DNA of 64,000 bases from Tribonema minus (lineage: Eukaryota > Sar > Xanthophyceae > Tribonematales > Tribonemataceae), in NCBI GenBank assembly GCA_017506865.1, contig JAFCMP010000041.1, forward strand, positions 1-64,000. Reading direction: 5' to 3'. The position numbers and the translations under genes are program-made. Numbering within the stretch: the first letter of the stretch is position 1; each line of letters starts with the position of its first letter. The notes below the pieces were generated by a model that did not search any database, was not told the DNA's origin, and saw only the letters and a list, made by a program, of their open reading frames with translations. Positions 2,407-24,927 of this stretch are shown here, one piece after another.

Positions 2407-2449
2407 AAAAGACGACCTTTGACCAAATCCACCAGGCGATAGCGGTACG

Positions 2450-5400
2450 ATGGCGCACGAGCAGGACTCGGCGCGTGCTGCATCAGGAGTAAACTCTCGC
2501 GCAACGCGGAGCTCTGGAGTTGTGTTGGCCAAGCTGCCCTATGGCCACAACCCGGAGCCGAGGCGTGTGCAGAGGTCACGGAGTTTGTCCGTGGGACGCG
2601 CAGCATCACTGGCAGATGCTGTTGCGATCAAGGCTGGAGGCGCTGCTGGTGGCGCAGTCGTACCAGCCCAGAGTGCGAACGAGCTAGCAAGCGGCAGCGC
2701 AGTGAGAACAGAGCCTGTGCCAGGGCCTGCAACTGACGCTGCTGCGGCGGCTCCGCACCACTTGTCCACCATCGGGAGCAGCGACACCACTTCAGGTCCA
2801 GTATCTGTCGCTGACCACGCTTTGGTGGAGTGGGCAGACAGTGCTGCTGCCGACTGGGGGCACGAGTCTGGCGGCAAGCCTTCTGGACCCACAGGACTTC
2901 TTGGCGCCCTCGCCGACAACCCGAAGCACCTGGTCATCCGCCCGATGGGATCTGGGCCCGCAATGGACGCGGTGCCCTCTCCTAGGGAGCGTGAAATGGA
3001 GCAGGAGGAGCAGCGAAAGGAAGCTGCGATGGTGGGGCATATGACTGCCGAGGAGGACTTGGACTTGCAGCTCAACATGGAGTTGCAGTACCTGCAGTCC
3101 GAGGTAACCAGCCTCAAAGGGGGGCTCGCAGGGGTGGCCAACACCACCTCTCTCATGGGGCAGGATCTGTGCATGGTAATTACGCACAACTTGCCCGGTA
3201 TCGACACATCGCTGCGCAGGCACCAGATGCAGCTGGCGGAGCACGCTAGTGCACTGGCGCAGATGGGGAGTGGCCCCACCATCGCAGGCGGTGCAGCATC
3301 ACAGCGCGACATGGACGCGCTGGTACAGGATGTGATTCCTGTCATACAAGGAGACATGGCGGCCATCGCGGAGAGCATCGCGGAGGTCGGTGAGAGGGTC
3401 GCGACTGCGGAGTTGCGGCTGATCCACATGGGTGAGCGCCTGTCAGGAGTGGCAGCGGAGGTTGCGCAGGGGCAAAAGCGCATGGAGGAGGTGATCGCGC
3501 GGCACGAGGATCTGCTGCGGCGGCACAACAACGCTGCAGCGGGCGTGGGGGACATGCGGCGCCAGCTATTTGAGGTGGGCACTAAAGTTGCGATGCTTGA
3601 TGCGCAGCGTCGTACCACAACGGCGTATGAGACATCCTTCCACTCTGTGGGTAGCAACTTTGGCAGCGCAGCACCCAGTGTGGCTCCCGAGGACAGCGTG
3701 TCAGTAGCAGACTTCAGCACCAGCGGCCCGGCAGTGCCGCTTAGTACGATCCGCAGCAGCAGCGTGGCACGACCGCCCATTGCGCCATACGCTGCACCAT
3801 TGGCTGGGCCTGGAAAGCACGTGTCGCCGAGCGCATCGGCGGCGCCGACCATTCCTGCTGGCGGCGCTGACGCCCGGCCACTGCGTCAACAACTGGAACG
3901 TGTAACAAGCAGCTACGCTGCTGACTCGTCGGATGCGACTTTGGCACCCACAGCGCAGCCCACTATGAAGCCCGACGCTCAGCTGCAGCTGCAGCATGCA
4001 GCAGATCAGAGCCACTTCCATCAGGCTCTGATGACACTTACTATGCAGCGCGATGCAGCTACGGCAGAGGCTCAGCAGCTACGGAGGGTCAACGCTGGCC
4101 TATCGGCGGCGCCAACGGCCGCAATGGCGGCCGCCCCAGGTACTATGCAAGCAGCGGCTACCCAGCAGAGGCCGTCGACGACTGCTGCGCCAACTGCCTT
4201 GCCTGCTGCCACCCTCGCGGACGGCGGCAGCAGCGACTTTGGCGCCGCAGCCCGCGGCGCCGGCAGCAGCGGCGGCGCTGCAGGCAGCGGCGGCGCCGGA
4301 GGCGGCGCCGGCGGCGACGGCGACGGCGGTGGCGGAGGCGGCAGCGGCCCCTCTAGATCGCCCCGGGGCACTGTACCGGTTGGCGCAGCCTCTGGCGGCG
4401 GCAGCGGCGGCGGCGGTGGAGGCGGCGGTGGTGCAGGTGGCGCTGGTGGTGGCGGCAGTGGAGGCAGCCGTGACGACAACTTTGATCGTGATGGCTGGGC
4501 TCTGCGCCGTGTACCGGCAGACTTGGACAAGCTGTTCCATGGCCTCACGCCTGTAAACCGCGGCGACGAGTATGTCGTGTGGCAGATTGGCAGTCAACTG
4601 CTGGTGCACCTGCGCCACGCCTGCTCACTCGCGCGTCAGAAGGCCAAGCTGCCGCAGGTGCTCAACAGGGAGGACGACTTTGGTTGCGAATGGCTGGCCC
4701 CCTTTACCATGGGCCTGTGTGTCGCCTTACGGGGCTCGCATCCGGCAGCAGCAACGGTGCGCGAGCAGGCAGAACAATGGATCGCGGAGGGCGCACGGGG
4801 AGTGGCGGCTGGCACGAGAGACCTGCAGCTCTACAAGTGGCTCATGGAACAACTGGGGGAGCACTTCCAGCAAGGTCAGCCTTCTCGCATTGCGGCGGAC
4901 CTGTTACGCGTGGCGGTGCGCAAAGACACGCCATTCCGTGATGCGCTCAACTACATGCAGTCCAAGTGCAACCTGTCCGCAATGATCGACCCGACAAACG
5001 ACAACCTACGCGTCCAAGCTCTTACGGGCTTGGTAAACAGGCAATACCCAACAATTGCCGCGCAGGACAACATTCGGGACATCATCAACCGCCACACACG
5101 CTACAGCATGCACCAGGCGCTTGAGGCGCTCAAGGCGCACCGCTCCGTGCAGCATCTCGCCAGCGGCGCACCCGCCGGCTACTCTATATACCCCGAGACA
5201 CTCAGCACGGGCTCAGGCGGAGGCGCCAGCGGTCTAAGTGGCGGCAATGGTGGCGGTGGCACCAATGATTACGCGCTGGGCGACAGGAGGCGCAGGCAGC
5301 AGCGTGAATCAGTGACACTGAACTCCATGGCTCTGTTGGCAGTGGTGGAGGAGAAATTCACCAGCTCGGAGCGGGCGCGGGGTAACGCGCTGGGGTGCTA

Positions 5401-5710
5401 CAACTGCGGCGGTGATCACCTGTTCAGCGCATGCTCGGAGGCATTCAACCACGCAGGTTGGGCAGCGGCAGCAGTACAACGCCCACTGGTGCAGAAATTT
5501 GCGCCTACGAACCAGACGACGTGGCAGGCACTCCGGTCGCGCATACGTGCTTTCAACAGCGGCGATGCCTCCTCGCTTCAGGGCCCGCGCGGCAGAGATT
5601 CCGCAGATGGTGGAAGCGGAAGTGGCGCTGGCGGTGGCAGGAGCTACAACCGCTACGGGGGCGGCTACGGCCGCGGCGGCCGTGGCAACAGTGGCAACAG
5701 GGGCACCTAG
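2450..5710 (+). CDS. gag: Gag polyprotein of the Ty3/gypsy element
   Basis: This 1086-aa structural protein would form the virus-like particle. It starts at ATG 2450, 60 nt after the left LTR. The N-terminal third is Ala/Ser-rich with a heptad-like helical segment at about residues 195-380. A Gly/Ala low-complexity stretch follows at about 590-680, then a folded capsid-like region at about 685-860. A zinc knuckle lies at residues 983-995 (C983, C986, H990, C995), spaced C-x2-C-x3-H-x4-C, one residue shorter than the canonical C-x2-C-x4-H-x4-C. The tail is RGG/Tyr-rich (GGGYGRGGRG) and likely binds RNA. The frame ends with TAG at 5708-5710, and the pol frame continues in the same register directly after it. 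A 230-bp piece of the knuckle region (5291-5520) recurs inverted at 11182-11399. Confidence 0.92.
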   Translation: MAHEQDSARAASGVNSRATRSSGVVLAKLPYGHNPEPRRVQRSRSLSVGRAASLADAVAIKAGGAAGGAVVPAQSANELASGSAVRTEPVPGPATDAAAAAPHHLSTIGSSDTTSGPVSVADHALVEWADSAAADWGHESGGKPSGPTGLLGALADNPKHLVIRPMGSGPAMDAVPSPREREMEQEEQRKEAAMVGHMTAEEDLDLQLNMELQYLQSEVTSLKGGLAGVANTTSLMGQDLCMVITHNLPGIDTSLRRHQMQLAEHASALAQMGSGPTIAGGAASQRDMDALVQDVIPVIQGDMAAIAESIAEVGERVATAELRLIHMGERLSGVAAEVAQGQKRMEEVIARHEDLLRRHNNAAAGVGDMRRQLFEVGTKVAMLDAQRRTTTAYETSFHSVGSNFGSAAPSVAPEDSVSVADFSTSGPAVPLSTIRSSSVARPPIAPYAAPLAGPGKHVSPSASAAPTIPAGGADARPLRQQLERVTSSYAADSSDATLAPTAQPTMKPDAQLQLQHAADQSHFHQALMTLTMQRDAATAEAQQLRRVNAGLSAAPTAAMAAAPGTMQAAATQQRPSTTAAPTALPAATLADGGSSDFGAAARGAGSSGGAAGSGGAGGGAGGDGDGGGGGGSGPSRSPRGTVPVGAASGGGSGGGGGGGGGAGGAGGGGSGGSRDDNFDRDGWALRRVPADLDKLFHGLTPVNRGDEYVVWQIGSQLLVHLRHACSLARQKAKLPQVLNREDDFGCEWLAPFTMGLCVALRGSHPAAATVREQAEQWIAEGARGVAAGTRDLQLYKWLMEQLGEHFQQGQPSRIAADLLRVAVRKDTPFRDALNYMQSKCNLSAMIDPTNDNLRVQALTGLVNRQYPTIAAQDNIRDIINRHTRYSMHQALEALKAHRSVQHLASGAPAGYSIYPETLSTGSGGGASGLSGGNGGGGTNDYALGDRRRRQQRESVTLNSMALLAVVEEKFTSSERARGNALGCYNCGGDHLFSACSEAFNHAGWAAAAVQRPLVQKFAPTNQTTWQALRSRIRAFNSGDASSLQGPRGRDSADGGSGSGAGGGRSYNRYGGGYGRGGRGNSGNRGT

Positions 5711-5800
5711 GGGTGCGACCCCCAGCCCACTCCTGGCTGGGGGGGAGCACTTGGAGCCTCTAGTGTCACTGGGGGGGGGAGTGACGCCCTCCCCCCGACG
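5708..5800 (+). promoter_or_regulatory. Putative stop-codon readthrough signal between gag and pol
   Basis: The Gag stop TAG (5708-5710) is followed in the same frame by pol, with no stop until 11188 and no ATG near the start of pol. Eight nucleotides after the TAG a perfect 9-bp G/C-rich stem begins (5719-5727 with 5735-5743, 7-nt loop). A second perfect 6-bp stem follows (5765-5770 with 5780-5785) whose loop is nine G residues, able to pair with the C-rich run at 5787-5796 as a pseudoknot. An 8-nt spacer to a structured element is the arrangement known from gammaretroviral UAG readthrough. Function is inferred, not shown. Confidence 0.65.
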
Positions 5801-8800
5801 ACAGTCAGAGACGCTGCGGCAGCAGCGGCGCCTGCGGGCGTCGCGCAAGCTGCAGTGCGCGCGACGTCTGCGGGGGCGACGGCGAGCGCCGCCCAAGCAG
5901 CTGACGCGCAGCGGAGCGCTGCGATGGCAGCGGCGCCCTCGGGCGCCGCGCCAGTCGCAGCGCGTACTTCTGGTGTGGCGGCGCCGCGGCGCGCCGCGCA
6001 CGCACCAGAGGCACTACGGAGTGCTGTGGCAGCAGCGGCGCCTACTGACGTCGCGCAAGCTGCAGCACGCGCGGCTTCTGCGAGGGTGCCGGTGAGCGCC
6101 GCCCAAACGGCTGACGCGCAACGAAGCGCTGCGATGGCAGCGGCGCCCTCGGGCACCGCGCCGGTCGCGGCGCGTGCTGCTGGTTTGGCGGTGCCTGCGC
6201 GCGCCGCGCACGCACCAACAGCACCACGGAGGGCTGCGGCAGCAGCGGTGTCTATGGACGTCGCGCAAGCGGCGCGCGCAGCTTCTTCAGTGGCGCCGTC
6301 GGGCGCCGCCCAAGAGGATGACGCGCAGCGGGGCGTTGCGATGGCAGCAGCGCCCTCGGGCGCCGCGCCAGTCGCGGCGCGTGCTTCTGGTGTGGCGGCG
6401 CCGCGACGCGCCGCGCTCGCACCAGCAGCACCACGGAACGCTGCGGCAGCAGCGGCACCTTTGGGCGCTGCGCTGTCTGCAGTGCATGCAGCTTCTGCAG
6501 CAGCGGCGAGCGCCGCCCACGCAGCAGCTGCGCAGCAGAGCGTTACGACGGCGCAGCTTCCGTTGAGCGCTGCTGCTGAGGAGGCGCCCACGAACGCTGC
6601 TCAAGCAGCAACGGCGCGATGGAGACCGGCGGCGTTGGCGGCGCCTGATGGTGCTGCACAGTCGCCGGCGACAACAACTACGACTGTACAGCGATGGCCT
6701 ATTTTGGGGCGACGTAAGTCCAGCGGCGCGCGGCTACGGCGCGCGCGCGCGGAGCGCCTGCAGCAGGAGCAGCGCGCTCGACAGCCGGTAGCACCCCTCA
6801 GCCCTATTCAGGAGCTTGGTACTCCAGCATGGAGACCCGTGCATGCTGCGGCGGGTCATGGAGTTGGCGCGCACGCGTCATCGCAAGGGGGGGTGAGGAT
6901 ACCACCAGCACCAGCAGTGAGTAGCTGCAGCACGACTACAACTGCAACTTCTGCGCCGGCAACGGCGCCACATTTGGCGACTGCAGCAGCTGCTGCGACA
7001 CGACACACGACAACTCCATCTTCTACACCAACTTCAACTCTGACATCAACTGCGACTCCCACACATTCCTCAAGACCGCCTTCAGCACCACTCAGCGGCG
7101 GCGACGCTGCTGCGGCGGCGCACGCCGCCGACGACGCCGCCTTTGCAGCGGAGCAGCAGCGCAGGCTGATAGCTCTGCAGCGGCTTCATGCTTTCAAGGT
7201 GGATGGCACGGCTCAACCTGAGCCGCAGCGGCGGATGCGCAGCTGGGCGCCGGCGGCAGAGACCCTTGGCGCCATCGACGAGGTGCTGGACGGCGAGGCG
7301 GGCCTGACAGCGGTGGAGATAGCCATGGCAGAGGAGGCGCGCACTGTTGAGCGCTGCTTCGAGATACTGGCCATGTGGGCGCCGGAGGACGGAGCTGATG
7401 ACGGGGCGGTCTTGGCATACTACGCTGAGGTGGCAGCGATGGAGGCCGCAGTACTACCTGTACCACAGCAGGCAAGCATGCCCAACGTAAGGGGCAAACT
7501 CTATACTGACGTGCACTCTAGGTTCAAGGCCCGTTTACGCTCTGCGCGCGCACTACGTTGCAAGTTTTCTAGGGACATTCTCTGGGACACTGGGGCCTCA
7601 GTTACTGCCATCAGGGAGCAAGCATTCCGCAAATTAGTTGCATCAGGAGCCATAGAGCAACGGGATGTCCACCAACTCAGCAAACCTAGGGCAGTAGCCG
7701 GTGTTGACACATCCAAGAAGCCACAGCGCGTCACCCACGCTGTAGCGCTTCACTTTGAGGCTGATGGCCCAGACGGGGTAGCTTTCACTCAGCTGGCGCT
7801 CATTGTACCACATCTGCCACACGACATCATCATTGGGCGTGACCACATCAGCAGACATAAGTGGCATGCAAGTCATAGTGGCAGTGGGCCCACATACGTG
7901 TATGGCGAGCCATCAGCAGAGCCCACCCCCAGCTTCAGTCCCAAAGTCCCAGTGTACACCTACGGGGAGGAACGCGATTGGGTGGCAGTAGTGCGCGTCG
8001 CAACAGAGCTAGATGGCCTTGAACATGGTGTGCAGACAGTTTGGGTTCAAGTGATGGAGTCTGATGGGATCACACCTGTCGTCTCCTGCCCGGGAGAACT
8101 GGACACAGCACATGTGACCATCGCGGAGGAATTCCTGAATCACATGTACACACGCGAGCTGACGGTTGGGCTGCATGCCAAGCCGGTCAAGCTCGAGCAG
8201 CGGGGGGAGCCCGTCTCGCTGCCACGTGGCACCGTGCTGGGCAAGGCGCGGCCGCTACGTGAGGTAACTGACAGCGTGCTGGAACGAGACCCGAACGCGC
8301 GCGCCACGGCGGTAGACGTTTACTGCGGCGCTGGCGGCCTGGCGGAGGGGCTCCAGCCCTACTTGAACGTCAAGCTCGCCGTTGACTCTGAGGAGCGCGC
8401 TCTTCGGATATACAAGGAGAATCACCCTCATACGGACGTCCGCCGCCGGGATATGGCGGACCCATCTACGCGCGCAGAGCTCATTGCAGATATGAGGCGG
8501 CTGCGCGCCGAGGTCTTATTAGGGGGCCCCCCCTGCCAGAAGTTCTCAACAGCAGGGGAGGGGGAGACGGCTTTGGGCATGGAGCACCTCTACTACATGC
8601 TGGAGGTAGCAATGGGCGCAGAGACCTGCCGACTACTGCAGATTGAAAATGTTCCGGGCCTTAGGGCGGCACCGGAGCTGGCGGAGTTTCTGCGCTGCGC
8701 AGCACACGGCGGCTTCACGGTGCAGCAGGAGCTAGTGATCACTGGTGCAGACAGCCGCATTGCTCAGACGCGCACGCGTGTGTTTTGGCTGCTGGGGCGA

Positions 8801-11188
8801 CCTGGCACTGGCGAGCACGACAGCGCGCGCATGCAGGCGTCTATGCACCAGGCAGTGCAGTTGCTGACATATGCCAAGCAGCAAGCTGAGTACGACACCG
8901 TGCGCAACGTCACCAGCGACGTGCTTGACTCCAACGGTCAGCGGCGCGACTTCTTTGCAACAGTTGGCCGCAACACTAAGGCCAAACAGGTGCACTCTAT
9001 GGACGGCCCCGCGCCGACCATTCGCGGCTGCACATACCGCCGAAACCTGCAGCCTAACATGGACGTGCGACCACAGGATGCTACGCAGGACCCGGCTGAG
9101 CACGCGCGCGCGGAGTACCTACCCTGGCATGCGCTGCGCGCCATTCACAGCTTCCCCACCTCGTACAAGTGGGATGCTCCAGAGCCGCCTGACGTCACTG
9201 CCTACTCACAGATGCTGGCGAACGCGGTGTGCCCGCAAATGGCGGACCTACTGGGGGGGATCCTGCTGCAGAGCGGATTGCTGCATGATGTCGTGGACCA
9301 GGCGGCGGCATCGTCGCTGCCAGATCCAGTACAAACCCTCATCAATTCTGGCACCCACCACGCTTTCGGCAAGTATGGAGTGGCTCTTGCACAGGAGGCG
9401 CGCAGACGTGTGGCGCGCGGAGCGCGCGCCCCTCAAGCACAAGCTGCTGCAGCTGCGGCGGCGCCGGCGAGCGCTGCGACGGCGGCGCCGGCGAGCGCTG
9501 CTGCAGCAGAGCCGGCAAGCGCTGCTGCGGCGGCAGCATATACAGGCATTGCGCGCAGTGCGCCGCGGGCTGCTGCCGCGGCGCCGCAGGGTGCCGCGCA
9601 GTCAGCGGCCGCGCCGCGGAGCTCTGCGACAAAAGAGACGTCTTCTGGCCCCCTACACGGCGACACTGCTGCTGCTGCGCAGGCAGCGGCTGCATGCCGG
9701 GGCGCTGCGGCGGCATCGGTGCCGGCTGGCACCGTGCGCGCTGCGGCCCAAGCTGCCTCAGGGGCGGCTCATAAGGAGGTCGCGCAGGCAACAGTTGCGC
9801 GACGGAGCGCTGCGACGGCAGCGGCGCCCGAGGGCGCCGCGCCAGTCGCGGCGCGTGCTGCTGGTGTAGCGGCTGCGTCGGCGCACGCCTCGCGCGCACC
9901 AGTGACACCAGGGAGTGCTGCAGCAGCAGCAGCGCCTGTGGGCGCCGCGCCAGCTGCAGCGCGCGCAGTCTCTTCGGTGGCGCCGGCGAGCGCCACCCAA
10001 GCGGCGGACGCGCAGCGGAGCGCTGCGGTGGCAGCGGCGCCTACGGGCGCCGCGCCTGTCGCGGCATACGCTGATTCTGCCGCGGCGCCGACCAGCGCCG
10101 CGCATGGAGTGGCAACTCAACAGAGCACTGCGGCAGCAGCGGCGCATGCTGGCGCTGAACCAGTCGCAGTGCACATGGCCACCGCAGTGGAGTGGGCGAG
10201 CTCCGCACAGGCGGCAGCGGCGCAGCAGCGCTCTGCAGCGGCAGCGGCGTCTGAGGACGCCGCGCATGCGGCAGCGGCTAGTGGGAGCAATGCTGCAGCG
10301 GCAGCATCAGTGACAAGAGATACAGCGGCGCAGCCCGCGCACGCGGCAGGCGCCGCCGCGGCGGCGCCAGCGCGCGCTGGGAGGGAGGAGGACATCTTTG
10401 TGCTGGACCTGCGCACTGACATTATGCGCTGCGAGGCGGAGCCGGAGGGTGACGCCGGCAGCAGCGCTGACGCGACTATTGCGAAGGGCGCAGCAGCCGT
10501 GCGAGAGGCGCTGCAGCAACACCTCGGTGAGGCCGTTGACTTTGAGCCTAGTGGGAGCGCAAAAGTACACATTCCTGACAGCGGCGGCTTAAGTTTGGGG
10601 TCATACGTTCACGAAGACCCTAAGGTTAATGCTGCTTTGGCTGAGGCACGCAAGCACTTGCCAGACTACATGCTGGCAGTGCGCGTTGACCTGCAGGGAT
10701 GGGACGTTGATCAGGTGGCGTGTTTGTGCCTACTGCTCGCTCAGTATAGCAGCAAAATGCTCTCAAAAGACAAGTGGGACATAGGGCATTGTAACACATT
10801 GCCCTTCCGCTTTGATCTCAAAGAGGGCAGCACACCGCACCATGACCGTCCATATAGGTACTCTCCTGCAATGACGGCTCTGGTCAAGGTCGAAATCGAC
10901 AAGCTGCTGGCTGCTGGCATCATCCGCCCTTCCAACTCTGAGTGGGCATCCCCAGTGGTGGCAGTGCTCAAGCCTGATGGCACTGCCCGAATCACCGTCA
11001 ACTACAAGAAGCTGAACGCCCAGACCAAGATCCCCCAGATCCCCATTCCCAACATAGAGGATCTTCTCAATAGTTTGGGGGGCTCAAAGGTCTTCACCAC
11101 CATGGACATCACCAGTGGGTACTTCACTAGTGCCATAGATGCAGACAGCATCCCCCTCACTGCCATGGTCACGTCGTTTGGTTCGTAG
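5711..11188 (+). CDS. pol: Pol part 1: Ala-rich linker, protease, C5-DNA methyltransferase, start of RT
   Basis: This frame is open from the Gag TAG to the TAG at 11186-11188, about 1825 codons, and no ATG marks a separate start. In order: Ala-rich ~70-aa repeats (about 5855-6650); an Asp/Pro/Thr-rich spacer; an aspartic protease with DTGA at 7586-7597 and the closing DIIIGRDH box near 7830; a full cytosine-C5 methyltransferase at about 8300-9280; a second Ala-rich block (about 9430-10380); then the N-terminal part of the reverse transcriptase (linker, LKPDGTARITVNYKKLN, MDITSGYF, ending at MVTSFG). The RT is cut off at 11181 by the inverted gag fragment and lacks its YIDD box. This portion could still give protease and methyltransferase but no polymerase. 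The residues before the break are repeated in full in part 2. Confidence 0.92.
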   Translation, partial: GCDPQPTPGWGGALGASSVTGGGSDALPPTTVRDAAAAAAPAGVAQAAVRATSAGATASAAQAADAQRSAAMAAAPSGAAPVAARTSGVAAPRRAAHAPEALRSAVAAAAPTDVAQAAARAASARVPVSAAQTADAQRSAAMAAAPSGTAPVAARAAGLAVPARAAHAPTAPRRAAAAAVSMDVAQAARAASSVAPSGAAQEDDAQRGVAMAAAPSGAAPVAARASGVAAPRRAALAPAAPRNAAAAAAPLGAALSAVHAASAAAASAAHAAAAQQSVTTAQLPLSAAAEEAPTNAAQAATARWRPAALAAPDGAAQSPATTTTTVQRWPILGRRKSSGARLRRARAERLQQEQRARQPVAPLSPIQELGTPAWRPVHAAAGHGVGAHASSQGGVRIPPAPAVSSCSTTTTATSAPATAPHLATAAAAATRHTTTPSSTPTSTLTSTATPTHSSRPPSAPLSGGDAAAAAHAADDAAFAAEQQRRLIALQRLHAFKVDGTAQPEPQRRMRSWAPAAETLGAIDEVLDGEAGLTAVEIAMAEEARTVERCFEILAMWAPEDGADDGAVLAYYAEVAAMEAAVLPVPQQASMPNVRGKLYTDVHSRFKARLRSARALRCKFSRDILWDTGASVTAIREQAFRKLVASGAIEQRDVHQLSKPRAVAGVDTSKKPQRVTHAVALHFEADGPDGVAFTQLALIVPHLPHDIIIGRDHISRHKWHASHSGSGPTYVYGEPSAEPTPSFSPKVPVYTYGEERDWVAVVRVATELDGLEHGVQTVWVQVMESDGITPVVSCPGELDTAHVTIAEEFLNHMYTRELTVGLHAKPVKLEQRGEPVSLPRGTVLGKARPLREVTDSVLERDPNARATAVDVYCGAGGLAEGLQPYLNVKLAVDSEERALRIYKENHPHTDVRRRDMADPSTRAELIADMRRLRAEVLLGGPPCQKFSTAGEGETALGMEHLYYMLEVAMGAETCRLLQIENVPGLRAAPELAEFLRCAAHGGFTVQQELVITGADSRIAQTRTRVFWLLGRPGTGEHDSARMQASMHQAVQLLTYAKQQAEYDTVRNVTSDVLDSNGQRRDFFATVGRNTKAKQVHSMDGPAPTIRGCTYRRNLQPNMDVRPQDATQDPAEHARAEYLPWHALRAIHSFPTSYKWDAPEPPDVTAYSQMLANAVCPQMADLLGGILLQSGLLHDVVDQAAASSLPDPVQTLINSGTHHAFGKYGVALAQEARRRVARGARAPQAQAAAAAAAPASAATAAPASAAAAEPASAAAAAAYTGIARSAPRAAAAAPQGAAQSAAAPRSSATKETSSGPLHGDTAAAAQAAAACRGAAAASVPAGTVRAAAQAASGAAHKEVAQATVARRSAATAAAPEGAAPVAARAAGVAAASAHASRAPVTPGSAAAAAAPVGAAPAAARAVSSVAPASATQAADAQRSAAVAAAPTGAAPVAAYADSAAAPTSAAHGVATQQSTAAAAAHAGAEPVAVHMATAVEWASSAQAAAAQQRSAAAAASEDAAHAAAASGSNAAAAASVTRDTAAQPAHAAGAAAAAPARAGREEDIFVLDLRTDIMRCEAEPEGDAGSSADATIAKGAAAVREALQQHLGEAVDFEPSGSAKVHIPDSGGLSLGSYVHEDPKVNAALAEARKHLPDYMLAVRVDLQGWDVDQVACLCLLLAQYSSKMLSKDKWDIGHCNTLPFRFDLKEGSTPHHDRPYRYSPAMTALVKVEIDKLLAAGIIRPSNSEWASPVVAVLKPDGTARITVNYKKLNAQTKIPQIPIPNIEDLLNSLGGSKVFTTMDITSGYFTSAIDADSIPLTAMVTSFGS
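5855..6650 (+). repeat. Ala-rich coding tandem repeats, block 1
   Basis: A ~207-210-bp coding unit (about 70 aa) repeats at least three times; for example the GCGATGGCAGC word recurs near 5921, 6131 and 6338. It encodes Ala/Pro/Ser sequence with spaced Arg. Units similar in composition and phrasing recur in block 2 at 9430-10380, so the protease-methyltransferase segment is bracketed by related linkers. Confidence 0.7.
8300..9280 (+). other. C5 cytosine-DNA methyltransferase domain inside Pol
   Basis: This domain transfers methyl groups from S-adenosylmethionine to cytosine C5. All the signature motifs are present in order: motif I DVYCGAGGLAEG at 8315-8350 (SAM binding); motif IV GGPPCQKF with the catalytic Cys codon at 8534-8536; motif VI ENV at 8645-8653; motif VIII QTRTR at 8765-8779; motif IX around TIRGCTYRR at 9017-9043; motif X ANAVCP at 9218-9235 (usual form GN.V.P). 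The region between motifs VIII and IX, where the target-recognition domain sits, is short (about 80 aa). The domain is about 325 aa, near bacterial M.HhaI size, with no added BAH, PWWP or ADD domain. All key residues are intact, so it looks catalytically competent. Its position between protease and RT means it would be released by, or packaged with, Pol. Confidence 0.95.
9430..10380 (+). repeat. Ala-rich coding repeats, block 2
   Basis: This is a second array of the Ala/Pro/Ser repeat seen at 5855-6650, here between the methyltransferase and the RT. It is a probable flexible linker in Pol. I see no domain in it. Confidence 0.65.
10325..11181 (+). repeat. 857-bp direct duplication, copy 1
   Basis: It reads identically to 11400-12256, offset 1075. 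It covers the end of Ala block 2, the spacer and the first third of the RT. The copy ends at the word GTCGTTTGG, which nearly matches the reverse complement of gag 5512-5520. Confidence 0.93.
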
Positions 11189-11399
11189 GCGCAAATTTCT
11201 GCACCAGTGGGCGTTGTACTGCTGCCGCTGCCCAACCTGCGTGGTTGAATGCCTCCGAGCATGCGCTGAACAGGTGATCACCGCCGCAGTTGTAGCACCC
11301 CAGCGCGTTACCCCGCGCCCGCTCCGAGCTGGTGAATTTCTCCTCCACCACTGCCAACAGAGCCATGGAGTTCAGTGTCACTGATTCACGCTGCTGCCT
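11182..11399 (-). repeat. Inverted fragment of gag inside pol
   Basis: This is the reverse complement of gag 5291 to about 5510 (zinc-knuckle region) with at most one or two differences at the junction. It lies between the two 857-bp copies and introduces the pol stop at 11186-11188. The left junction sits in a ~9-nt near-match (GTCGTTTGG against GTCGTCTGG), which suggests template switching onto the opposite strand. Confidence 0.92.
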
Positions 11400-12256
11400 G
11401 CGGCGCAGCCCGCGCACGCGGCAGGCGCCGCCGCGGCGGCGCCAGCGCGCGCTGGGAGGGAGGAGGACATCTTTGTGCTGGACCTGCGCACTGACATTAT
11501 GCGCTGCGAGGCGGAGCCGGAGGGTGACGCCGGCAGCAGCGCTGACGCGACTATTGCGAAGGGCGCAGCAGCCGTGCGAGAGGCGCTGCAGCAACACCTC
11601 GGTGAGGCCGTTGACTTTGAGCCTAGTGGGAGCGCAAAAGTACACATTCCTGACAGCGGCGGCTTAAGTTTGGGGTCATACGTTCACGAAGACCCTAAGG
11701 TTAATGCTGCTTTGGCTGAGGCACGCAAGCACTTGCCAGACTACATGCTGGCAGTGCGCGTTGACCTGCAGGGATGGGACGTTGATCAGGTGGCGTGTTT
11801 GTGCCTACTGCTCGCTCAGTATAGCAGCAAAATGCTCTCAAAAGACAAGTGGGACATAGGGCATTGTAACACATTGCCCTTCCGCTTTGATCTCAAAGAG
11901 GGCAGCACACCGCACCATGACCGTCCATATAGGTACTCTCCTGCAATGACGGCTCTGGTCAAGGTCGAAATCGACAAGCTGCTGGCTGCTGGCATCATCC
12001 GCCCTTCCAACTCTGAGTGGGCATCCCCAGTGGTGGCAGTGCTCAAGCCTGATGGCACTGCCCGAATCACCGTCAACTACAAGAAGCTGAACGCCCAGAC
12101 CAAGATCCCCCAGATCCCCATTCCCAACATAGAGGATCTTCTCAATAGTTTGGGGGGCTCAAAGGTCTTCACCACCATGGACATCACCAGTGGGTACTTC
12201 ACTAGTGCCATAGATGCAGACAGCATCCCCCTCACTGCCATGGTCACGTCGTTTGG
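11400..12256 (+). repeat. 857-bp direct duplication, copy 2
   Basis: Second copy of 10325-11181. Unlike copy 1 it continues into the rest of the RT (LYEWLRCPQG) without a break, so copy 2 is joined to the functional 3' part of pol. Confidence 0.93.
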
Positions 12257-15200
12257 CTTGTATGAGTGGCTACGGTGCCCACAGGGGGCAGCGGGGGCGC
12301 CAGGGCACTTTACACGCCTCATGCAGATGGTGCTTTCCGGCCTAGAGCGCGTCCAGCCCTACATTGACGACGTCATTGTGCACTCTACATCCACGGCTCA
12401 GCACCTCGACGACCTCAAAGCCCTTTTTCAGCGCCTAGAGCATCATGGGATGAAGCTAGCCCCCAGCAAGCTGCACATAGGGTGTAAGCACATCAAGTTC
12501 CTGGGGCACATTGTGGGCGTTGATGGCATCAGGCCAGATCCATCCAAAGTTCAAGCCCTACTTGAGATGCCCATCCCCTGCAACATCTCTCAGCTGCGTG
12601 CGTGGCTTGGCCTCGCAAACTACTACCGGCGATTTATTCAGAACATGGCCAAGCTGGTAGCACCGCTCACCCATCTGATGGCCAAGGGGGTGGACTTCAT
12701 AGTTGGCAGTGCTCAACAGCAAGCCATCCGCGAGGTCAACGAAGCCCTGGCGCTTCACACTTGCATGCAGTACCCCGACTACGCGCGCGCCAGCACAGGC
12801 GAGCGCCCCTTTGTCCTTGCCACAGACGCATGCAAGGAGGGCTTTGGCGCAGTGCTCTCGCAGGCCAACAACGACGGCGCGGAGCAACCGATCGCCTTCA
12901 CATCTCGCGCGACTCTACCCAATGAGCGCAACTGGTCTACTACCGACCTTGAAGCCGGCACCATCGTCTTCGGCATCAAGAAGTTCAAACACATCCTGTG
13001 GGGGACGCCGTTTGTCCTCTACACCGACCACCGCGCTCTTCAGTACATCGACAGCCTTCGCGAGCGCACCGCGCGCGGCGCGCGCTGGAGCGAGTTCCTC
13101 AGCGCCTTCAACATCACCATTCGCTACAAGAAGGGCGCGTCACACGGCAATGCCGACGGGCCAAGCCGCAATCCTGTCCCTGCTACACCACAAGATGCAG
13201 AGGAGAGCGAGCGCGAGCGGCTGCTCGAGGCGTACTGCCTGCAGGCCCACGAGTGGGAGCGGCTGGAGGCATTTGCAACAGCAGAGTACATCAACATCTG
13301 CACGGAGGTGGTAGCAGCGCTTCAAGGAGGGGGAGAGGAGCAGATTTCCGCGCTTGCTGAGGCGGCAGACGCTGAGGCGGGTGCATGGGAGTGCTTCGCT
13401 GAGCATCCTCAACTGGGCGTCATGACGCCTGGTGACTGGCAGCGAGAGCAGCGCGCAGATGCTCAGCTGGGGCCAATTTGCAACATGCTGCTTGGAGCAG
13501 GACTGCCAGCAGACGCGGCGCTTGCAGCCCAGGTACAGAAATGGGCCTTGCAGTGCAGCCTTGTCGTCTGCGGCAACGCTCAGCTCTTGGTGCACAACAC
13601 CCCCGAATCCCCGCTTCCACAGCTTGCCATTCCCCGGTCCATTAGGGATCAAGTTCTTGAGGCGATGCACGGCTCAGCTTGGGCAGGCCACCAGGGCATT
13701 AAACGCACAATGGAGCGCACCCGCGCGCACTGCTGGTGGCCCTCTTGGACCCTAGACGTCAACTACTGGGTTAATCATTGCTGGCCCTGCCAAGCGTTCA
13801 AGCACACCGGCAAGCTGTCTCGCTGGCCCACTATATGGCGCGAGAGGCCCCCCTACGCCTTTCATAGCCTAGCGCTTGACCACTTCGGCCCCCTACCCCT
13901 CAGTGCTGGCGGCTTCATGTACATACTGGTGGTGATGTGCCTGTTTTCGGGCTGGGTGTGGTGCTATCCCATCAAGCCTGGGGACTACAGTGCTGCTGGC
14001 ACAGCTGAAGTTTTAGTCAACCAGCACAGCACTCGTCACGGTCCCCCTTCTAAGCTCCTCAGCGACCGCGGCAGCCTCTTCATGGCAGAGCTTTCTCAAG
14101 CTGTCTACAAGCAGATGGGCGTCAAGAAGCTTTCCACTACCGCATACCACCCTGAGTGCAACGGCAAGTGTGAGCGTTTCATGCAGGAGCTAGCCCAGAT
14201 GCTCGCCATGTTAGTTGATAGTGCCAAGAACAATTGGGCGGACTGGCTACCTCATATCAGTTTTGCCCACAACACTGCCTACAACCGCGCCACCGGCGCA
14301 ACCCCCTTCCTTCTGGCTACTGGTCGCGAGGCCGCCGTCGCACTACACCTCATACTGGGCAAGCTTCAACAGCCCTTGGTCAAGCCTGGCACACATCCTT
14401 CAGTGTCACAGCTAGTGTTCGACATCCTTGAGCGGCAGCGCTCAGCCAACACCATTGCCAACCAACGTCATGCGCTGCGACGGGCTAAGGTGCTCCGCGA
14501 GAACACCGAGATCGCGGAGGCATTTGGACTACGTCAGTCGTTCAGCGCTGGTGAGCGAGTGTGGTACTACCATGTGCCGCGCACGCATACGGCATCTGCA
14601 GACACGGAGCCGGCACCAGTGGCGGGGGAGTTCAACAAGGCGAAGCGCACACTCTTTAGCAAGAAGCTCTTGGATAGATGGCATGGGCCCTATAGCATAA
14701 TATTAGCGGGCCCGGCGGAGAGCGGCGGGGAGCGTGTGCAGGCCGGGTGTCTTCTGGTGGACATCAACGGACGGCCTACGCGCATATCGATGCGCCTCAC
14801 CAAGAAGTGTCGCGACCCTAGCGACATGCGGCAGCAGCCGGAGACGTTGCCTGCGGGCTTCTCTCGCTACCTGCTGGCGAAGCACTGGAGCGGGCATTCA
14901 CCTGGCTCACTCTCTACTGACGACGTTGCTGCTCACAACTTCCAGCGGCACGGCGTAGAGGCGATACTTCAACATCGTGTAGCGGCGGCAGCGCGCGGGC
15001 GGGGGCACCGCCTACAGTACCTAATACGCTGGGAGGGTGCAACCAGCGGGGGGATAGTTGACTCGTGGGAGGACTCCGAGCAGCTAGATGAGTGCCCCCA
15101 AGTACTCGAGGAGTACTGGTCTACATTAAACAAGGCCATTGCCTGTCGCGACATTACAGTGGCGGGCTCAAACACTCAGGTGGTCAAGCGTCAGCTGCGA

Positions 15201-15596
15201 CGCGCCGTCAAGGCGCGGGGCGTTGGCGGCGTTCTGGCCCAATGTGGTGCGGGCTCGTATGAGCTTGCGCCTCTGGCGGAGGCGTTACTCCAGCCACCTG
15301 CGACATCGGTGTTGCAGAGTGCAGCTATCAGCGGACTGCAGCTTATGGCTGTTTTCAAGTTCACGGAGCCAAGCGGCGAAGAGCACCTTACTTGGTGTGA
15401 GGGCGAGCTCACAGGCGTAGTCTCAAAGGGGAAGACAAGGCGTACACAGATAGCTCATAGGGTGTTCTGGATTGTTGAAGGGGTGTATCAGACCCTAGTA
15501 CTGGACCCTAGCTTGTACAACACGCGCCCAGATGCATCGAATGGTTCTTGGTTCCTAGTTGGCACACAAGCCCAGCTGGAATCATTGCATGTGTAG
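11499..15596 (+). CDS. pol: Pol part 2: reverse transcriptase, RNase H, integrase, chromodomain
   Basis: This frame is open from 11384, with its first ATG at 11499, and ends at TAG 15594-15596. It holds a complete RT with YIDD at 12360-12371; RNase H with its first Asp (LATDACKEG) at 12825-12827; an integrase with an HHCC zinc region (about 13665-13795); and the DDE triad at 13878, 14064 and 14172 with exactly 35 residues between the second Asp and the Glu. A chromodomain follows at about 14955-15100 (YLIRWEG, SWEDSEQL). The last ~150 residues contain a segment of the type WCEGEL...HRVFWIVEG...GSWFLV, which resembles a Tudor-like chromatin-reader barrel; this last point is inference. RT-RNaseH-IN order defines Ty3/gypsy. 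In this rearranged copy the frame is cut off from gag and protease. Confidence 0.95.
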   Translation: MRCEAEPEGDAGSSADATIAKGAAAVREALQQHLGEAVDFEPSGSAKVHIPDSGGLSLGSYVHEDPKVNAALAEARKHLPDYMLAVRVDLQGWDVDQVACLCLLLAQYSSKMLSKDKWDIGHCNTLPFRFDLKEGSTPHHDRPYRYSPAMTALVKVEIDKLLAAGIIRPSNSEWASPVVAVLKPDGTARITVNYKKLNAQTKIPQIPIPNIEDLLNSLGGSKVFTTMDITSGYFTSAIDADSIPLTAMVTSFGLYEWLRCPQGAAGAPGHFTRLMQMVLSGLERVQPYIDDVIVHSTSTAQHLDDLKALFQRLEHHGMKLAPSKLHIGCKHIKFLGHIVGVDGIRPDPSKVQALLEMPIPCNISQLRAWLGLANYYRRFIQNMAKLVAPLTHLMAKGVDFIVGSAQQQAIREVNEALALHTCMQYPDYARASTGERPFVLATDACKEGFGAVLSQANNDGAEQPIAFTSRATLPNERNWSTTDLEAGTIVFGIKKFKHILWGTPFVLYTDHRALQYIDSLRERTARGARWSEFLSAFNITIRYKKGASHGNADGPSRNPVPATPQDAEESERERLLEAYCLQAHEWERLEAFATAEYINICTEVVAALQGGGEEQISALAEAADAEAGAWECFAEHPQLGVMTPGDWQREQRADAQLGPICNMLLGAGLPADAALAAQVQKWALQCSLVVCGNAQLLVHNTPESPLPQLAIPRSIRDQVLEAMHGSAWAGHQGIKRTMERTRAHCWWPSWTLDVNYWVNHCWPCQAFKHTGKLSRWPTIWRERPPYAFHSLALDHFGPLPLSAGGFMYILVVMCLFSGWVWCYPIKPGDYSAAGTAEVLVNQHSTRHGPPSKLLSDRGSLFMAELSQAVYKQMGVKKLSTTAYHPECNGKCERFMQELAQMLAMLVDSAKNNWADWLPHISFAHNTAYNRATGATPFLLATGREAAVALHLILGKLQQPLVKPGTHPSVSQLVFDILERQRSANTIANQRHALRRAKVLRENTEIAEAFGLRQSFSAGERVWYYHVPRTHTASADTEPAPVAGEFNKAKRTLFSKKLLDRWHGPYSIILAGPAESGGERVQAGCLLVDINGRPTRISMRLTKKCRDPSDMRQQPETLPAGFSRYLLAKHWSGHSPGSLSTDDVAAHNFQRHGVEAILQHRVAAAARGRGHRLQYLIRWEGATSGGIVDSWEDSEQLDECPQVLEEYWSTLNKAIACRDITVAGSNTQVVKRQLRRAVKARGVGGVLAQCGAGSYELAPLAEALLQPPATSVLQSAAISGLQLMAVFKFTEPSGEEHLTWCEGELTGVVSKGKTRRTQIAHRVFWIVEGVYQTLVLDPSLYNTRPDASNGSWFLVGTQAQLESLHV

Positions 15597-15778: not shown

Positions 15779-15985
15779 TGTGGTGACACTGGATGTTGGA
15801 GTGTCACCTGTAACTGTTACGGTTGGCAGTTACGAGTTGTTCGTTGTGTTTGTTTGGCTCAGACAAGAGCAGCAGCCCCAGAATACACATAGCACAGTTC
15901 GGTCAGCTGTGTTGTGTGTGGGTGTCTTCTCTGCATTGTTCCCTGCACTTGCTGAAGTGTAGTACGGAGACTAGTTGTTTCATCA
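15779..15985 (+). repeat. 3' LTR
   Basis: 207 bp, read as identical to 2183-2389 including both hairpins. Confidence 0.95.
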
Positions 15986-15989
15986 CTTC
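15986..15989. repeat. Target-site duplication CTTC, right
   Basis: This is the matching copy of the 4-bp duplication. Removing the element and one copy restores an open reading frame across the recombinase gene. Confidence 0.8.
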
Positions 15990-16779
15990 ATGCCAGGACG
16001 ACGGGATCCCACAGCTCGCAAAGTGGGACTTGTCGGAGACGGAGAGCGCATTGGTGCACTGCGTTCTGCTGTTGTGCAGGCCGATGCTCGCCACAGGCGC
16101 CAAGAGCACTGCCCGCATGTTTCTCGATGCTGCCGGAGCTCCCGTGACACAGCGCTGGATCGAAACCAAGGTGGCAGAGGTCGGAAAGGAGTGGCTCGGG
16201 GTGCCAAGGCTTGGTCCGCACTCACTCAGGACGATGTGGGTGTCTTGGATGGTGAACAGCGGTCTCACCACAGAGGAGGACTTCAACAGCCTGGCTGCCT
16301 ACGTCCAAGTGTCTCGCTGCACAATGTTGGAGACTTATGTGACTCCCAGTCACAACGGCCCTGCGCAGCGCGTCGGGCAGCTGATGAGGGATGGAGGGCT
16401 CAACTCTCACGTGCCTCCGCCTACAGCACCTGCAAAGGGTGCGGACGATCGCTCTGAGCAGGATGAGGAGTGCGATACCTCCACCGCAGACACGGCGTCC
16501 ACAGCCGCTGCGTCCGACACGACAGAGGAGCAGATCGACGGAGGGGGTGGGGGGACCAAACCATACGGCAAGGCTCTGCGCACGAAACGCAATGCATACA
16601 TTGACAACATCACGCTTGCGGTCGGGGCGTACGGTGGCGACGCAAAGACAGCATTTGATGCCTTGGTCACAAAGCGCAAGCATGGCCAGCTGGGCGCTCA
16701 GGAGCAGTGGTTCAGGGAGGACGTCACTTTCTTCAGAGACCTAGACCTCCCTGCGTTCAAGAAGATGTGCACAAAGTGA
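15990..16779 (+). pseudogene. Tyrosine recombinase, C-terminal catalytic part
   Basis: This is the 3' part of the YR gene split by the retrotransposon. It carries the H-x-x-R box (HSLR, His codon 16219, Arg codon 16228), a following helix (LAAYVQVSRCTMLETYV) and the candidate nucleophile Tyr at 16336-16338, which is the expected order of a tyrosine-recombinase catalytic domain. After the catalytic core comes a low-complexity Asp/Thr/Ser/Gly linker and a basic C-terminal tail, ending at the TGA at 16777-16779. It has no start of its own. The frame is continuous with 660-2182 across the precise excision point, so the interruption is recent and the two halves were one gene. The 16780-17040 stretch after it holds no recognised gene. 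Confidence 0.75.
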
Positions 16780-22200: not shown

Positions 22201-24927
22201 AGGTGAGTAATACACCAGAGCCTCTTCTGATAGCACCCAGAGCGGCAATTGTGTGCGACAACATGGACATTTGCAATGCGCGCGTCACTGCGCCGACACG
22301 ACAGGTTTCAACTGCTGCCCAACCTGACAGCAGTGCTGAACCAGAGGCTCCTGCTCCGTGTAAGCCCGCCAAGCTGCCGGCAGAGGTCAACACTCTCAAT
22401 TAGTGGGATGCGCGCGCACGAGAGGAGCATGCCTTGGCATATTTTGCGTACACACAACGACGTGCAGAGGAGAGGCGCGCTGCAAAGCGTGCTGCAGATC
22501 CTGCCGATGAGAAGGCGAGTCATAAGGCACAGCCTCTTTCGGCAGCACCCAAAGAGGCAACTGTGTGCCACAACATGGACAATTGCAGTGCGTGCGTCAC
22601 TGCGTCGACACAACAAGTCCCAACTACTGGTCAACCTGACTGTGTTGAGTCCAAGCCTCCTGCATTGTGTGCGGGGACGCCCTCCAAGCCGCCGGTAGAG
22701 GTAAAGACTGTCAATTTGTGGGATGCGCGAGCACGAGAGGAGCATGCCTTGGCATATTTTGCGTACACACAACGACGTGCAGAGGAGAGGCGCGCTGCAA
22801 AGCGTGCTGCAGATCCTGCCGATGAGAAGGCGAGTCATAAGGCACAGCCTCTTTCGGCAGCACCCAAAGAGGCAACTGTGTGCCACAACATGGACAATTG
22901 CAGTGCGTGCGTCACTGCGTCGACACAACAAGTCCCAACTACTGGTCAACCTGACTGTGTTGAGTCCAAGCCTCCTGCATTGTGTGCGGGGACGCCCTCC
23001 AAGCCGCCGGTAGAGGTAAAGACTGTCAATTTGTGGGATGCGCGAGAACTAAAGGAGCATACCTTGTCACATTTCGCATTCACACAACAACTTGCAGAAG
23101 AGAGGCGCTCTGCAAAGCGTGCTGCAGAAAGTGCCAAGGACCAGGTGAGCGATGAGCCACAGCCTCTTTCGGCAGCACCCAGAGAGACTATTGCGTGCGG
23201 CACGATCATGGACAGCTGCAGTGTGCGCGTCCATCCGACAAAGTGCAACAGCAGCTTGAACGTGCTGGTTAGCATGGACGACGACGTGCCATGTTGCACC
23301 AAGGGACCGGTTATGATGCGGCTGATCAGGAGGTGGGCCACTCGGCAGTACCTGCATCGTTTTGCCGATGCGCTAGCTGTGCCCATCATCCCTGCCCCCC
23401 CGCTTGCCGAGGTGATGCTCCTCGGCAACGCCATCCAACCTCCCTGCCAAGATGACTGCTCCGGACCATCTGCACCAGGGCAAGAGGGCGCGGTTGGGGG
23501 CAAACGTAAGCGAGGCAGTAGCAAGTCTGGCAAGCGTGCCATAGCGGCCAAACAGTGTGCTGTGAAAGGCTGCAGCAATCCCGCCAAGCGCAAGTGGTGT
23601 GGGGAGCACAAACGCTTTCAGGTATGTCGCCACCAAGGATGCAGCAAGGCGCCGATTTACAACATCCCTGGGGCTGCAGCACAGTGGTGCAGGGAGCACA
23701 AGACCGGAGACATGCAAGATGTTGCACACAAGAGGTGCATGCGGTGTGGACTGAAGATACCCAAGTTTGGGACGGAGGACGGCAGGCCGACCCACTGCGG
23801 TGACTGCAAGACGGCAGACATGCGTGATGTTGGCAATAATAAGTGCAAGGCTTGCAGACTGAAGCAACCAATCTTTGTGACGGAGGAGGGCTACCCCACG
23901 CACTGCGGTGACTGCAAGACGGCAGACATGCGAGATGTTATAAGCAGGATGTGCGAGGGGTGCAGTCTTAAGCGACCATGCTTCGGGGTGAAGGATGGCA
24001 GCCCCACCCACTGCGGTGATTGCAAGACGGCAGTCATGAGAGATGTTGCACACAAGAGTGTGAAGCTTGTGGATTGAAGACACCCACCTTTGGCATGGAG
24101 GATAGCAGCCCCACCCACTGCGGTGACTGCAAGACAGCAGACATGCGTGATGTTCGCAACAATAAATGCAAGGATTGCGGACTGAAGCAACCAAGCTTCG
24201 GGACGGAGGAGGGCGACCCCATGCACTGCGGTGACTGCAAGACGTCCACATGCGAAATGTTGTCAGCAAATCACGAGAACAGTGTGGGCTGAAGATACCT
24301 AGCTTTGGGGTTGAGGACGGCCGCCCCAGCCATTGCGGTGACTGCAAGGCGGCACACATGCGAGATGTTGTAAACAAGACATGTCCGCATGGTCGGAGAC
24401 TGGAATTATGACGCGGTGAGATCTGCCATATCAACAACATCGGCACACGATCTGTGGAGGAGATCTTCCCAGACGCTACAGCATTTGTGGTTTGGATTGG
24501 AGGTGATGACCTGCTCAAATTCATTGAAGCCATCAGCCAGCGGTTCAAGTGGGAAGAGATGGTGATGCCAGACATGATGGTGGGGCAGCGTACATTCTTC
24601 CACGACAGCTATTTCTGGCATAAAGACAAGCCCAAAGACGTGCGGGACACGCTGGCGCTGGTGCAAAGGGGCTACCAGCTCGTGCGCACACGAGACAGAT
24701 TGCCACCAGTCGAGGGAGCTCTCAACATCAACGTAGATGCGTCAAGGGGGTTCGCGGAGATCTGCTGCACCCTGGCTGCAGCGCCAGGGGTAGCAGATGA
24801 GGCATGGCCGACATTGTGGAAGTGTGCCGACAGCCTCGCGCAGCGTGCCATCATGCAACTCGGGCAGCAGCATGCGCATGTTAAGCAGAGCCTCATGACA
24901 AACTTCTTTGAAATCAATGGAAACTGA
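21851..24927 (+). pseudogene. EsV-1-7-type cysteine-repeat protein, multiply broken
   Basis: It starts at ATG 21851, shared in position with the copy at 27069. The N-terminal half is a ~105-aa repeated module (LWDAR..EEHALAYFAYTQR..EERRAAKRAA) present about four times. The C-terminal half has eight to nine Cys repeats with a 36-aa period from about 23555 to 24411. The first two are C-x4-C...C-x2-H, the later ones C-x2-C...C-x2-C followed by K-T-A-D-M-R-D-V. This matches the EsV-1-7 repeat known from brown-algal, green-algal and giant-virus proteins such as IMMEDIATE UPRIGHT. A 150-aa unknown C-terminal domain ends at 24927. Damage relative to the copy and the repeats: a 2-nt loss near 21890, in-frame TAG at 22113 and 22401, frameshifts near 24055 and 24245, and TGA at 24409. 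The stops replace different residues, so code reassignment does not explain them. Confidence 0.72.
22406..23035. repeat. 315-bp coding tandem duplication
   Basis: Two units (22406-22720 and 22721-23035) read nearly identically, 315 bp or 105 codons each, so the frame is kept. More diverged units lie on both sides (about 22090 and 23036 onward). Confidence 0.93.

Follow-up and report, generated by a model that had tools for sequence, protein, structure and literature searches.

What does a retrotransposon do with a cytosine methyltransferase of its own? DNA methylation is usually a host weapon against transposons, whereas in the alga Tribonema minus the enzyme is common gear of the gypsy elements of one genome. 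We studied a stretch of 64,000 nucleotides (contig JAFCMP010000041.1, positions 1 to 64,000 of the forward strand; hereafter the window), which holds a Ty3/gypsy element with a C5 cytosine methyltransferase (MTase) in its Pol frame, together with the whole genome (158 Mb in 554 contigs, in which the window is C41:1-64000). In this alga, we found, a large radiation of gypsy elements carries the MTase as a standard part.

The MTase of the window copy matches Pfam PF00145 at residues 867-1179 of the open reading frame (ORF) at 5711-11188 (+ strand), or about 8309-9247 (E = 1.8e-18; 67.5 bits against a cut-off of 22). The match spans model positions 3-316 of 324. Under the motif names and definitions that we take to be those of C5 MTases, motifs I, IV (PC), VI (ENV), VIII (RxR), IX, and X are all present and in order:

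8303-9262, + strand: complete C5 cytosine methyltransferase domain, 320 amino acids (Pfam, motifs, structure model)
8315-8338, + strand: motif I, DVYCGAGG
8522-8536, + strand: motif IV, GGPPC, with the catalytic Pro-Cys at 8531-8536
within 8642-8653, + strand: motif VI, ENV
8765-8782, + strand: motif VIII, QTRTRV
9119-9157, + strand: motif IX-like, LPWHALRAIHSFP
9215-9229, + strand: motif X, LANAV

An earlier sequence-only reading of this DNA had proposed a complete C5 MTase built into a Ty3/gypsy Pol, with intact catalytic residues, of minimal M.HhaI size and without a host-type regulatory domain. The Pfam coverage and the presence of GGPPC, ENV, and QTRTRV bear this out, as do the 320-residue length and the lack of any Pfam match to RFD or BAH domains of the DNMT1/MET1 type in the window frames scanned or in another copy of the element (L010).

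A structure predicted for the window MTase from an alignment of 22 element MTases (A3, which leaves out family G, described below) has a pLDDT of 80.2 and a pTM of 0.82, and the model shows the C5 MTase fold over the whole domain. The catalytic cysteine column is invariant across the 22 rows. (An earlier model, built from 10 rows, was poor, with a pLDDT of 45.6, and we did not rely on its Foldseek search.) In size, predicted fold, and motif order the domain resembles M.HaeIII and M.HhaI, but it shares just 15-20% identity with them in the aligned core, and it is embedded in a polyprotein.

Might the enzyme act on RNA, on the tRNA primer that LTR (long terminal repeat) elements use, or on an RNA:DNA hybrid, instead of finished DNA? 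DNMT2 is the best sequence relative in a profile search of the PDB (E = 1.8e-22), and Foldseek ranks Dnmt2 from S. pombe second, behind the prophage protein 3g7u and ahead of M.HaeIII. On the other hand, DNA-bound M.HaeIII is at the top of the VIA-align ranking, and the three DNMT2 rows in our MTase tree form their own clade (100/99) without the element MTases, so we rejected a DNMT2 identity. We consider an RNA target improbable. A Dnmt3 origin was also rejected: with A3 as the profile, we found 54 PDB sequences at E <= 10, of which none was named DNMT3 or DRM, although the same library does hold Dnmt3 types (44 of the 56 rows of another search were DNMT3, 3L, or DRM). This rejection is based on the profile search; the tree contained a single DNMT3 row, on a long branch. 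No DNMT3 chain is among the 50 entries that VIA-align listed, which we do not count as evidence. Judged by its sequence, the element MTase is of the Dcm/DNMT2/DNMT1-like kind (with M.HaeIII and M.HhaI), not Dnmt3-like.

The rest of the element is as follows:

2179-2182 (left) and 15986-15989 (right), no strand: target site duplication CTTC, read from the sequence
2183-2389, + strand: 5' LTR, 207 bp, TG...CA, a 100% match to the 3' LTR
2423-5707, + strand: Gag open frame (ORF reading), first ATG at 2450
5396-5434, + strand: CX2CX3HX4C motif near the Gag C terminus (motif reading), presumably a zinc knuckle
5708-5710, + strand: in-frame amber stop at the Gag/Pol junction, the same in the family A and B copies read
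5711-11188, + strand: Pol open frame, part 1, with protease (PR), MTase, Ala-rich repeats, and the start of reverse transcriptase (RT) (ORFs, Pfam)
7586-7846, + strand: aspartic protease core, DTGA...IIGRDH (motifs)
9812-10216, + strand: 105-bp repeats coding for Ala-rich sequence in the MTase-RT interval, also at 5813-6529
10325-11181, + strand: 857-bp segment, whose second copy at 11400-12256 breaks the RT in the window copy
11170-11402, - strand: inverted copy of gag 5291-5523, inside Pol
11385-15596, + strand: Pol open frame, part 2 (Pfam)
12042-12515, + strand: RT (RVT_1, Pfam)
12801-13109, + strand: RNase H (Pfam)
13629-13805, + strand: integrase zinc domain (H2C2, Pfam)
13893-14153, + strand: rve core (Pfam, 31 bits, just below the cut-off of 32.6)
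14955-15122, + strand: chromodomain (PF00385, 30.1 bits, cut-off 25.1)
15779-15985, + strand: 3' LTR, 207 bp, a 100% match to the 5' LTR

The element is a Ty3/gypsy chromovirus: it has direct TG...CA LTRs, a 4-bp target site duplication, the order PR-RT-RNase H-integrase, and a chromodomain after the integrase. Chromoviruses share this order, the LTRs, and the target site duplication; what sets the window element apart is the MTase inserted between PR and RT and the amber stop between Gag and Pol. The best PDB match to the RT (with the RT of L010 as the query) is the Ty3 RT, 4ol8 (E = 8.3e-59). A Pfam scan of the Gag frame (2423-5707) gave no match. In family B, Pfam's gag-asp_proteas is found at the same place as the window's PR, below the cut-off (E = 0.0023). 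Because the 207-bp LTRs are identical and CTTC is present on both sides, the insertion is very recent. The surrounding locus (558-2181 and 15990-16779) weakly matches a tyrosine recombinase (PF00589, E = 0.0093, below the cut-off), so the element possibly inserted into another mobile element.

The MTase does lie in frame between protease and RT, as the sequence-only reading had it, but the Pol of the window copy is not intact: the MTase frame is open, yet the RT is interrupted by a recent internal duplication. The duplicated 857 bp are taken from the linker behind the MTase and from the beginning of RT, the inverted gag piece is at the junction, and all of these are 100% identical to their sources. 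A template switch during reverse transcription would fit this arrangement.

Gag and Pol share one frame, with a single amber codon between them in the A and B copies read. The TAG and the next 12 bases are identical between A and B, despite a synonymous distance of about 1.25, so Pol is probably made by readthrough, with the amber region as the likely signal. The 50 bases after this stretch also look well conserved (window 5708-5770), and the RNA at the amber stop folds at -43.4 kcal/mol over 83 nt, a value without a shuffle control.

How widespread is the MTase? The window MTase has at least 128 matching places in the genome. Among the matches listed, 17 (the window included) are at 100% identity; 28 family A MTases (at least 96% identity) are full-length or one residue short and free of stops, and 15 family B MTases (64-66% identity) are full-length, one of them with a stop. 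We also examined 62 of the 150 listed RT places, grouped by RT identity into A (at least 96%), B (85-88%), and C (61-67%). An MTase match precedes the RT by 0.5-6 kb on the same strand at 31/33 A, 15/16 B, and 12/13 C places. One of the two A places without an MTase (C31:1794) is near the start of its contig, where the MTase would be cut off. Of the 150 integrase zinc-domain places listed, at least 99 are preceded by an MTase match at a distance of 0.5-9 kb, and in the same pairing the MTase was on the wrong strand 3 times and downstream once. This is a lower bound: the 51 misses include a family on C117 (L056) in which the MTase is present, and other places among them may truly lack it. Finally, of four gypsy elements picked solely by RT similarity, three match PF00145, and the domain of the fourth is 65-74% identical to one of these. 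The sequence-only reading had named two outcomes that would count against it, a domain among pseudogenised inserts confined to this one copy, or its absence from all other family members; the 17 identical places and the pairing at 31 of 33 family RT places speak otherwise, and with the integrase pairing they led us to reject a single-copy or contaminant domain. As a side observation, a 6208-aa open frame is reported around a gypsy RT and integrase at C311:6724-9033, about twice the 3129 aa of its relatives.

The MTase-bearing elements fall into three lineages. Lineage 1 (families A, B, and C) has the order PR-MTase-RT, as seen in A and B; in C, the MTase is upstream of an RT that is 61-67% like A's, and the position of PR is taken from A and B. 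In lineage 2 (D, E, F, and P), the MTase precedes the protease (gag-MTase-PR). Family E has the MTase at 984-1131, PR at 1547-1630 (below the cut-off), and RT at 1974; in D, F, and P, a protease motif after the MTase was judged by eye. L006 (X) was grouped with lineage 2 on its MTase alone. In lineage 3 (G and H), the MTase is preceded by a protease-like LDSCAG motif, judged by eye, and followed by RT. The RTs of different lineages share 32-40% identity and are no closer to one another than to Ty3 (35-41%).

In a tree of the MTases, the 25 element domains (24 without X) are on one side (100/99) and the 12 others, nine references and three non-element genes of the same genome, are on the other, in a tree with few references and long branches. 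The grouping survives two reductions of the data set, one without DNMT3A, X, and one phage row and the other without lineage 3 and DNMT3A, and the lineage 1 MTases still cluster once lineages 2 and 3 are removed. These results suggest one shared source for the element MTases, which is likely but not proved. The MTase and RT trees do not share one branching order; since congruence survives testing (p-AU 0.058 and 0.215), we do not claim that MTases were swapped between lineages.

We found no close prokaryotic or viral source in the contig, viral, and phage collections. With the profile of 10 MTases from families A, B, and C (alignment A1), a genome contig collection gave 46 candidate stretches and no relatives, and a viral contig collection gave 35 candidates and one relative, at 26% identity; a single-sequence query gave two candidates and no relatives. 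Among phage records, 26 matched the profile, and the best-ranked was 27% identical over 99%. The host's own MTases (L001, L002, and L004 in the tree) are not close either. Searches of the host genome for DNMT1-RFD and for DNMT3A came back empty; lacking a working control, they carry no weight. Outside the elements, we read one DNMT2-like exon (L004) and the virus-like Dcm genes L001-L003. The latter have open frames of 367-390 aa and are the three top-scoring PF00145 places of the genome; L003 is a near-copy of L002 on another contig. They are possibly endogenous viral genes.

Is the active site kept across the lineages? Motif IV is PPC in A, B, C, E, and X, but APC in D, SSC in F, TLC in P, and TRC in H. 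In family G the motif IV loop is deleted: against the H domain, its copies align over residues 1-84 (or 18-84) and again over 109-353, with the same stretch skipped. G cannot use the usual catalytic cysteine. Many of the top integrase places belong to G and H, whose frames reach 3455 aa, and many of their scores are identical, so these families have spread recently.

We then considered selection, as pairwise ratios of nonsynonymous to synonymous change (dN/dS), which are rough where the synonymous distance dS is high and near saturation. Between families, the MTase ratios are 0.07-0.28, with open frames. Within B, dN/dS is 0.065 (at dS 0.40) and 0.136 (dS 0.94); between A and B it is 0.227 (dS 1.27); C pairs give 0.09 and 0.17, one of them saturated; D-F comparisons give 0.13-0.20; E gives 0.157 (dS 0.105) and E-P 0.28 (dS 2.6). 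The altered domains are constrained too: 0.135 (0.090-0.190) in F, which has SSC, at dS 0.84, and 0.169 (0.109-0.241) for G versus H at dS 1.36. The RT is at 0.03-0.09 where defined. Close copies are looser, with 0.39-0.92 among A copies (one undefined), 0.16-0.66 in near-identical B pairs (one undefined), and, for a pair of H copies separated by a dS of 0.008, a ratio of 1.11; this is as expected for insertions after transposition. Low ratios between families and loose ones among close copies imply selection on the transposing lineages, which includes the MTase, more loosely than RT. The loose ratios among A copies and in the H pair are also what a functionless captured gene, carried along by a recent burst, would show. 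Such a passenger seems very improbable given the constraint between families and the open frames, and an MTase match is missing beside only 4 of the 62 RT places.

Our preferred account, in which we have about even confidence, is that the window holds a young chromodomain Ty3/gypsy element whose MTase is packaged and modifies cDNA before integration, while a second, non-catalytic role preserves the fold elsewhere. It builds on what the data support directly, namely the anatomy, the family-wide presence, purifying selection, the predicted fold, and the changed or missing catalytic residues in sister lineages. Pol would be translated by readthrough of the amber stop. The MTase would travel in the virus-like particle together with RT and integrase, and it would methylate short cytosine sites in the new cDNA before integration, so that the copy may be marked as host-like or as already tamed. 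The suggestion of the sequence-only reading that reverse-transcribed DNA could be methylated by the element's own enzyme, to hide new copies or mark them for host recognition, is thereby supported in part. We infer the methylation step from the position and completeness of the MTase, from selection, and from the published activity of SymbioDIRS-Dnmt3 on CG in yeast. In the sister lineages, where the catalytic loop is altered or lost, the fold is still selected, probably for binding of DNA or RNA or for the shape of the polyprotein; since these degenerate lineages are conserved, the fold should have a second value in nucleic-acid binding or polyprotein architecture. As to history, we tentatively propose, with a little less than even confidence, that a C5 MTase was captured early and became a standard Pol domain in three deeply separated lineages, on either side of the protease, and that at least one lineage turned non-catalytic yet remained under selection.

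Alternatively, the fold could be a nucleic-acid-binding or structural module of Pol throughout, with catalysis an ancestral, dispensable property lost family by family. The series of motif IV variants from D to the deletion in G fits this idea, as do the low ratios in F and in G versus H despite their altered motif IV and the recovery of the domain in gypsy elements picked by RT. It does not account for the catalytic cysteine, ENV, and RxR, which are invariant in the 10 rows of A1, and constraint within B (0.065) is stronger than in the catalytically degenerate G-H pair. We view a non-catalytic role throughout as possible but rather unlikely.

Several observations weigh against methylation of new copies by an active enzyme. 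Some old copies in A and B carry changes in motif I, and the MTase changes faster than RT (A-B identity of 66% versus 88%). Lineage 3, whose catalytic loop is altered or missing, is no less numerous than the others (56 of the 99 zinc-domain pairings come from the lineage 3 search list), which implies that catalysis is not needed for gypsy success here. According to PMC5890265, KnitGypsy-Dnmt3 showed no activity in yeast, a result its authors call inconclusive. Also, we saw no overall CpG decay from self-methylation in the window element or in two B stretches. For CpG, the observed/expected ratio of the window element is 0.90 and that of the B stretches 0.98-0.99, inside the range of six non-element loci (0.86-1.16), while the window's flanks are lower (0.81 on the left; 0.70 and 0.84 in the halves of the right). 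Lineage 2 is at 0.82-0.92, and G and H, at 0.70-0.74, are below A and B. Ten other A MTases show 132 differences from the window's; 60 of these are transitions, and 17 of the 60 involve CpG, a fraction near the 29% of C+G positions that lie in CpG. Pointing the opposite way, the A LTR has a ratio of 0.42 (211 bp) and the RT-integrase part 0.79; the low value of the LTR (2183-2389), a short sequence, may be due to chance. The methyl mark may be transient, off CpG, or absent.

Retrotransposon-borne DNA methyltransferases (DNMTs) as a kind are already known from three papers. PMC5890265 (de Mendoza 2018) describes SymbioLINE-Dnmt and SymbioDIRS-Dnmt3 from Symbiodinium and KnitGypsy-Dnmt3 from Klebsormidium nitens; the SymbioDIRS-Dnmt3 domains had CG activity in yeast, and the SymbioLINE domains had none, which was likewise called inconclusive. 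PMC12344493 likewise confirms that some DNMT3 members reside in retrotransposons and that orphan DNMTs exist. PMC6338049 states that Ty3/gypsy and DIRS elements with a methylase occur in stramenopiles, red and green algae, and charophytes, with DAM and DCM not separated, and speculates on antiviral roles.

As far as these texts go, KnitGypsy-Dnmt3 is the closest parallel: it too has a C5 MTase inside a Ty3/gypsy Pol frame, with key residues kept and purifying selection (Ka/Ks < 0.2, PMC5890265). In contrast to the window MTase, it is of the Dnmt3 family, a comparison by description, as its sequence is outside our tree. It has a DIRS-like repeat arrangement (Fig. 4 legend, PMC5890265) instead of plain direct LTRs, and its host belongs to the green lineage whereas ours has traces of red-type RuBisCO. 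The elements studied here differ further in their three lineages, two placements, and catalytically degenerate relatives. Symbiodinium likewise has hundreds of retrotransposon-borne DNMT copies in one alga, and the SymbioLINE DNMTs are also an orphan lineage (PMC5890265), but these are DIRS and LINE elements from another host group. SF1 RNA helicases in insect retrotransposons (PMC6338049) are also accessory enzymes captured by polyproteins, with a different enzyme and different hosts. In the literature searched, which left out bioRxiv and most subscription papers, we found no non-Dnmt3 C5 MTase in LTR elements, no two placements in one genome, and no selected, catalytically degenerate versions; nor was there a gypsy element like this one apart from PMC5890265 and papers mentioning it.

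In this alga, complete, altered, and deleted active sites coexist naturally and can be compared side by side, so the role of retrotransposon-borne DNMTs becomes testable. Among new copies, only those of the intact versions should be methylated, and any property common to intact and degenerate versions must come from the fold.

A few other features of the host were seen. The genome has light-harvesting genes and two pieces of plastid rbcL (L029 and L030); we compared 47 aa of L030, and its best-scoring chains are what we take to be red-type RuBisCO. These finds make the host a probable alga with a plastid of the red lineage. A search for the alpha family of cryptophyte phycoerythrin was empty, but lacked a working control. 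Elsewhere in the window, the ORF at 22404-24077 has an EsV-1-7 cysteine-rich motif (E = 2.5e-15), and its N-terminal part is tandemly repeated.
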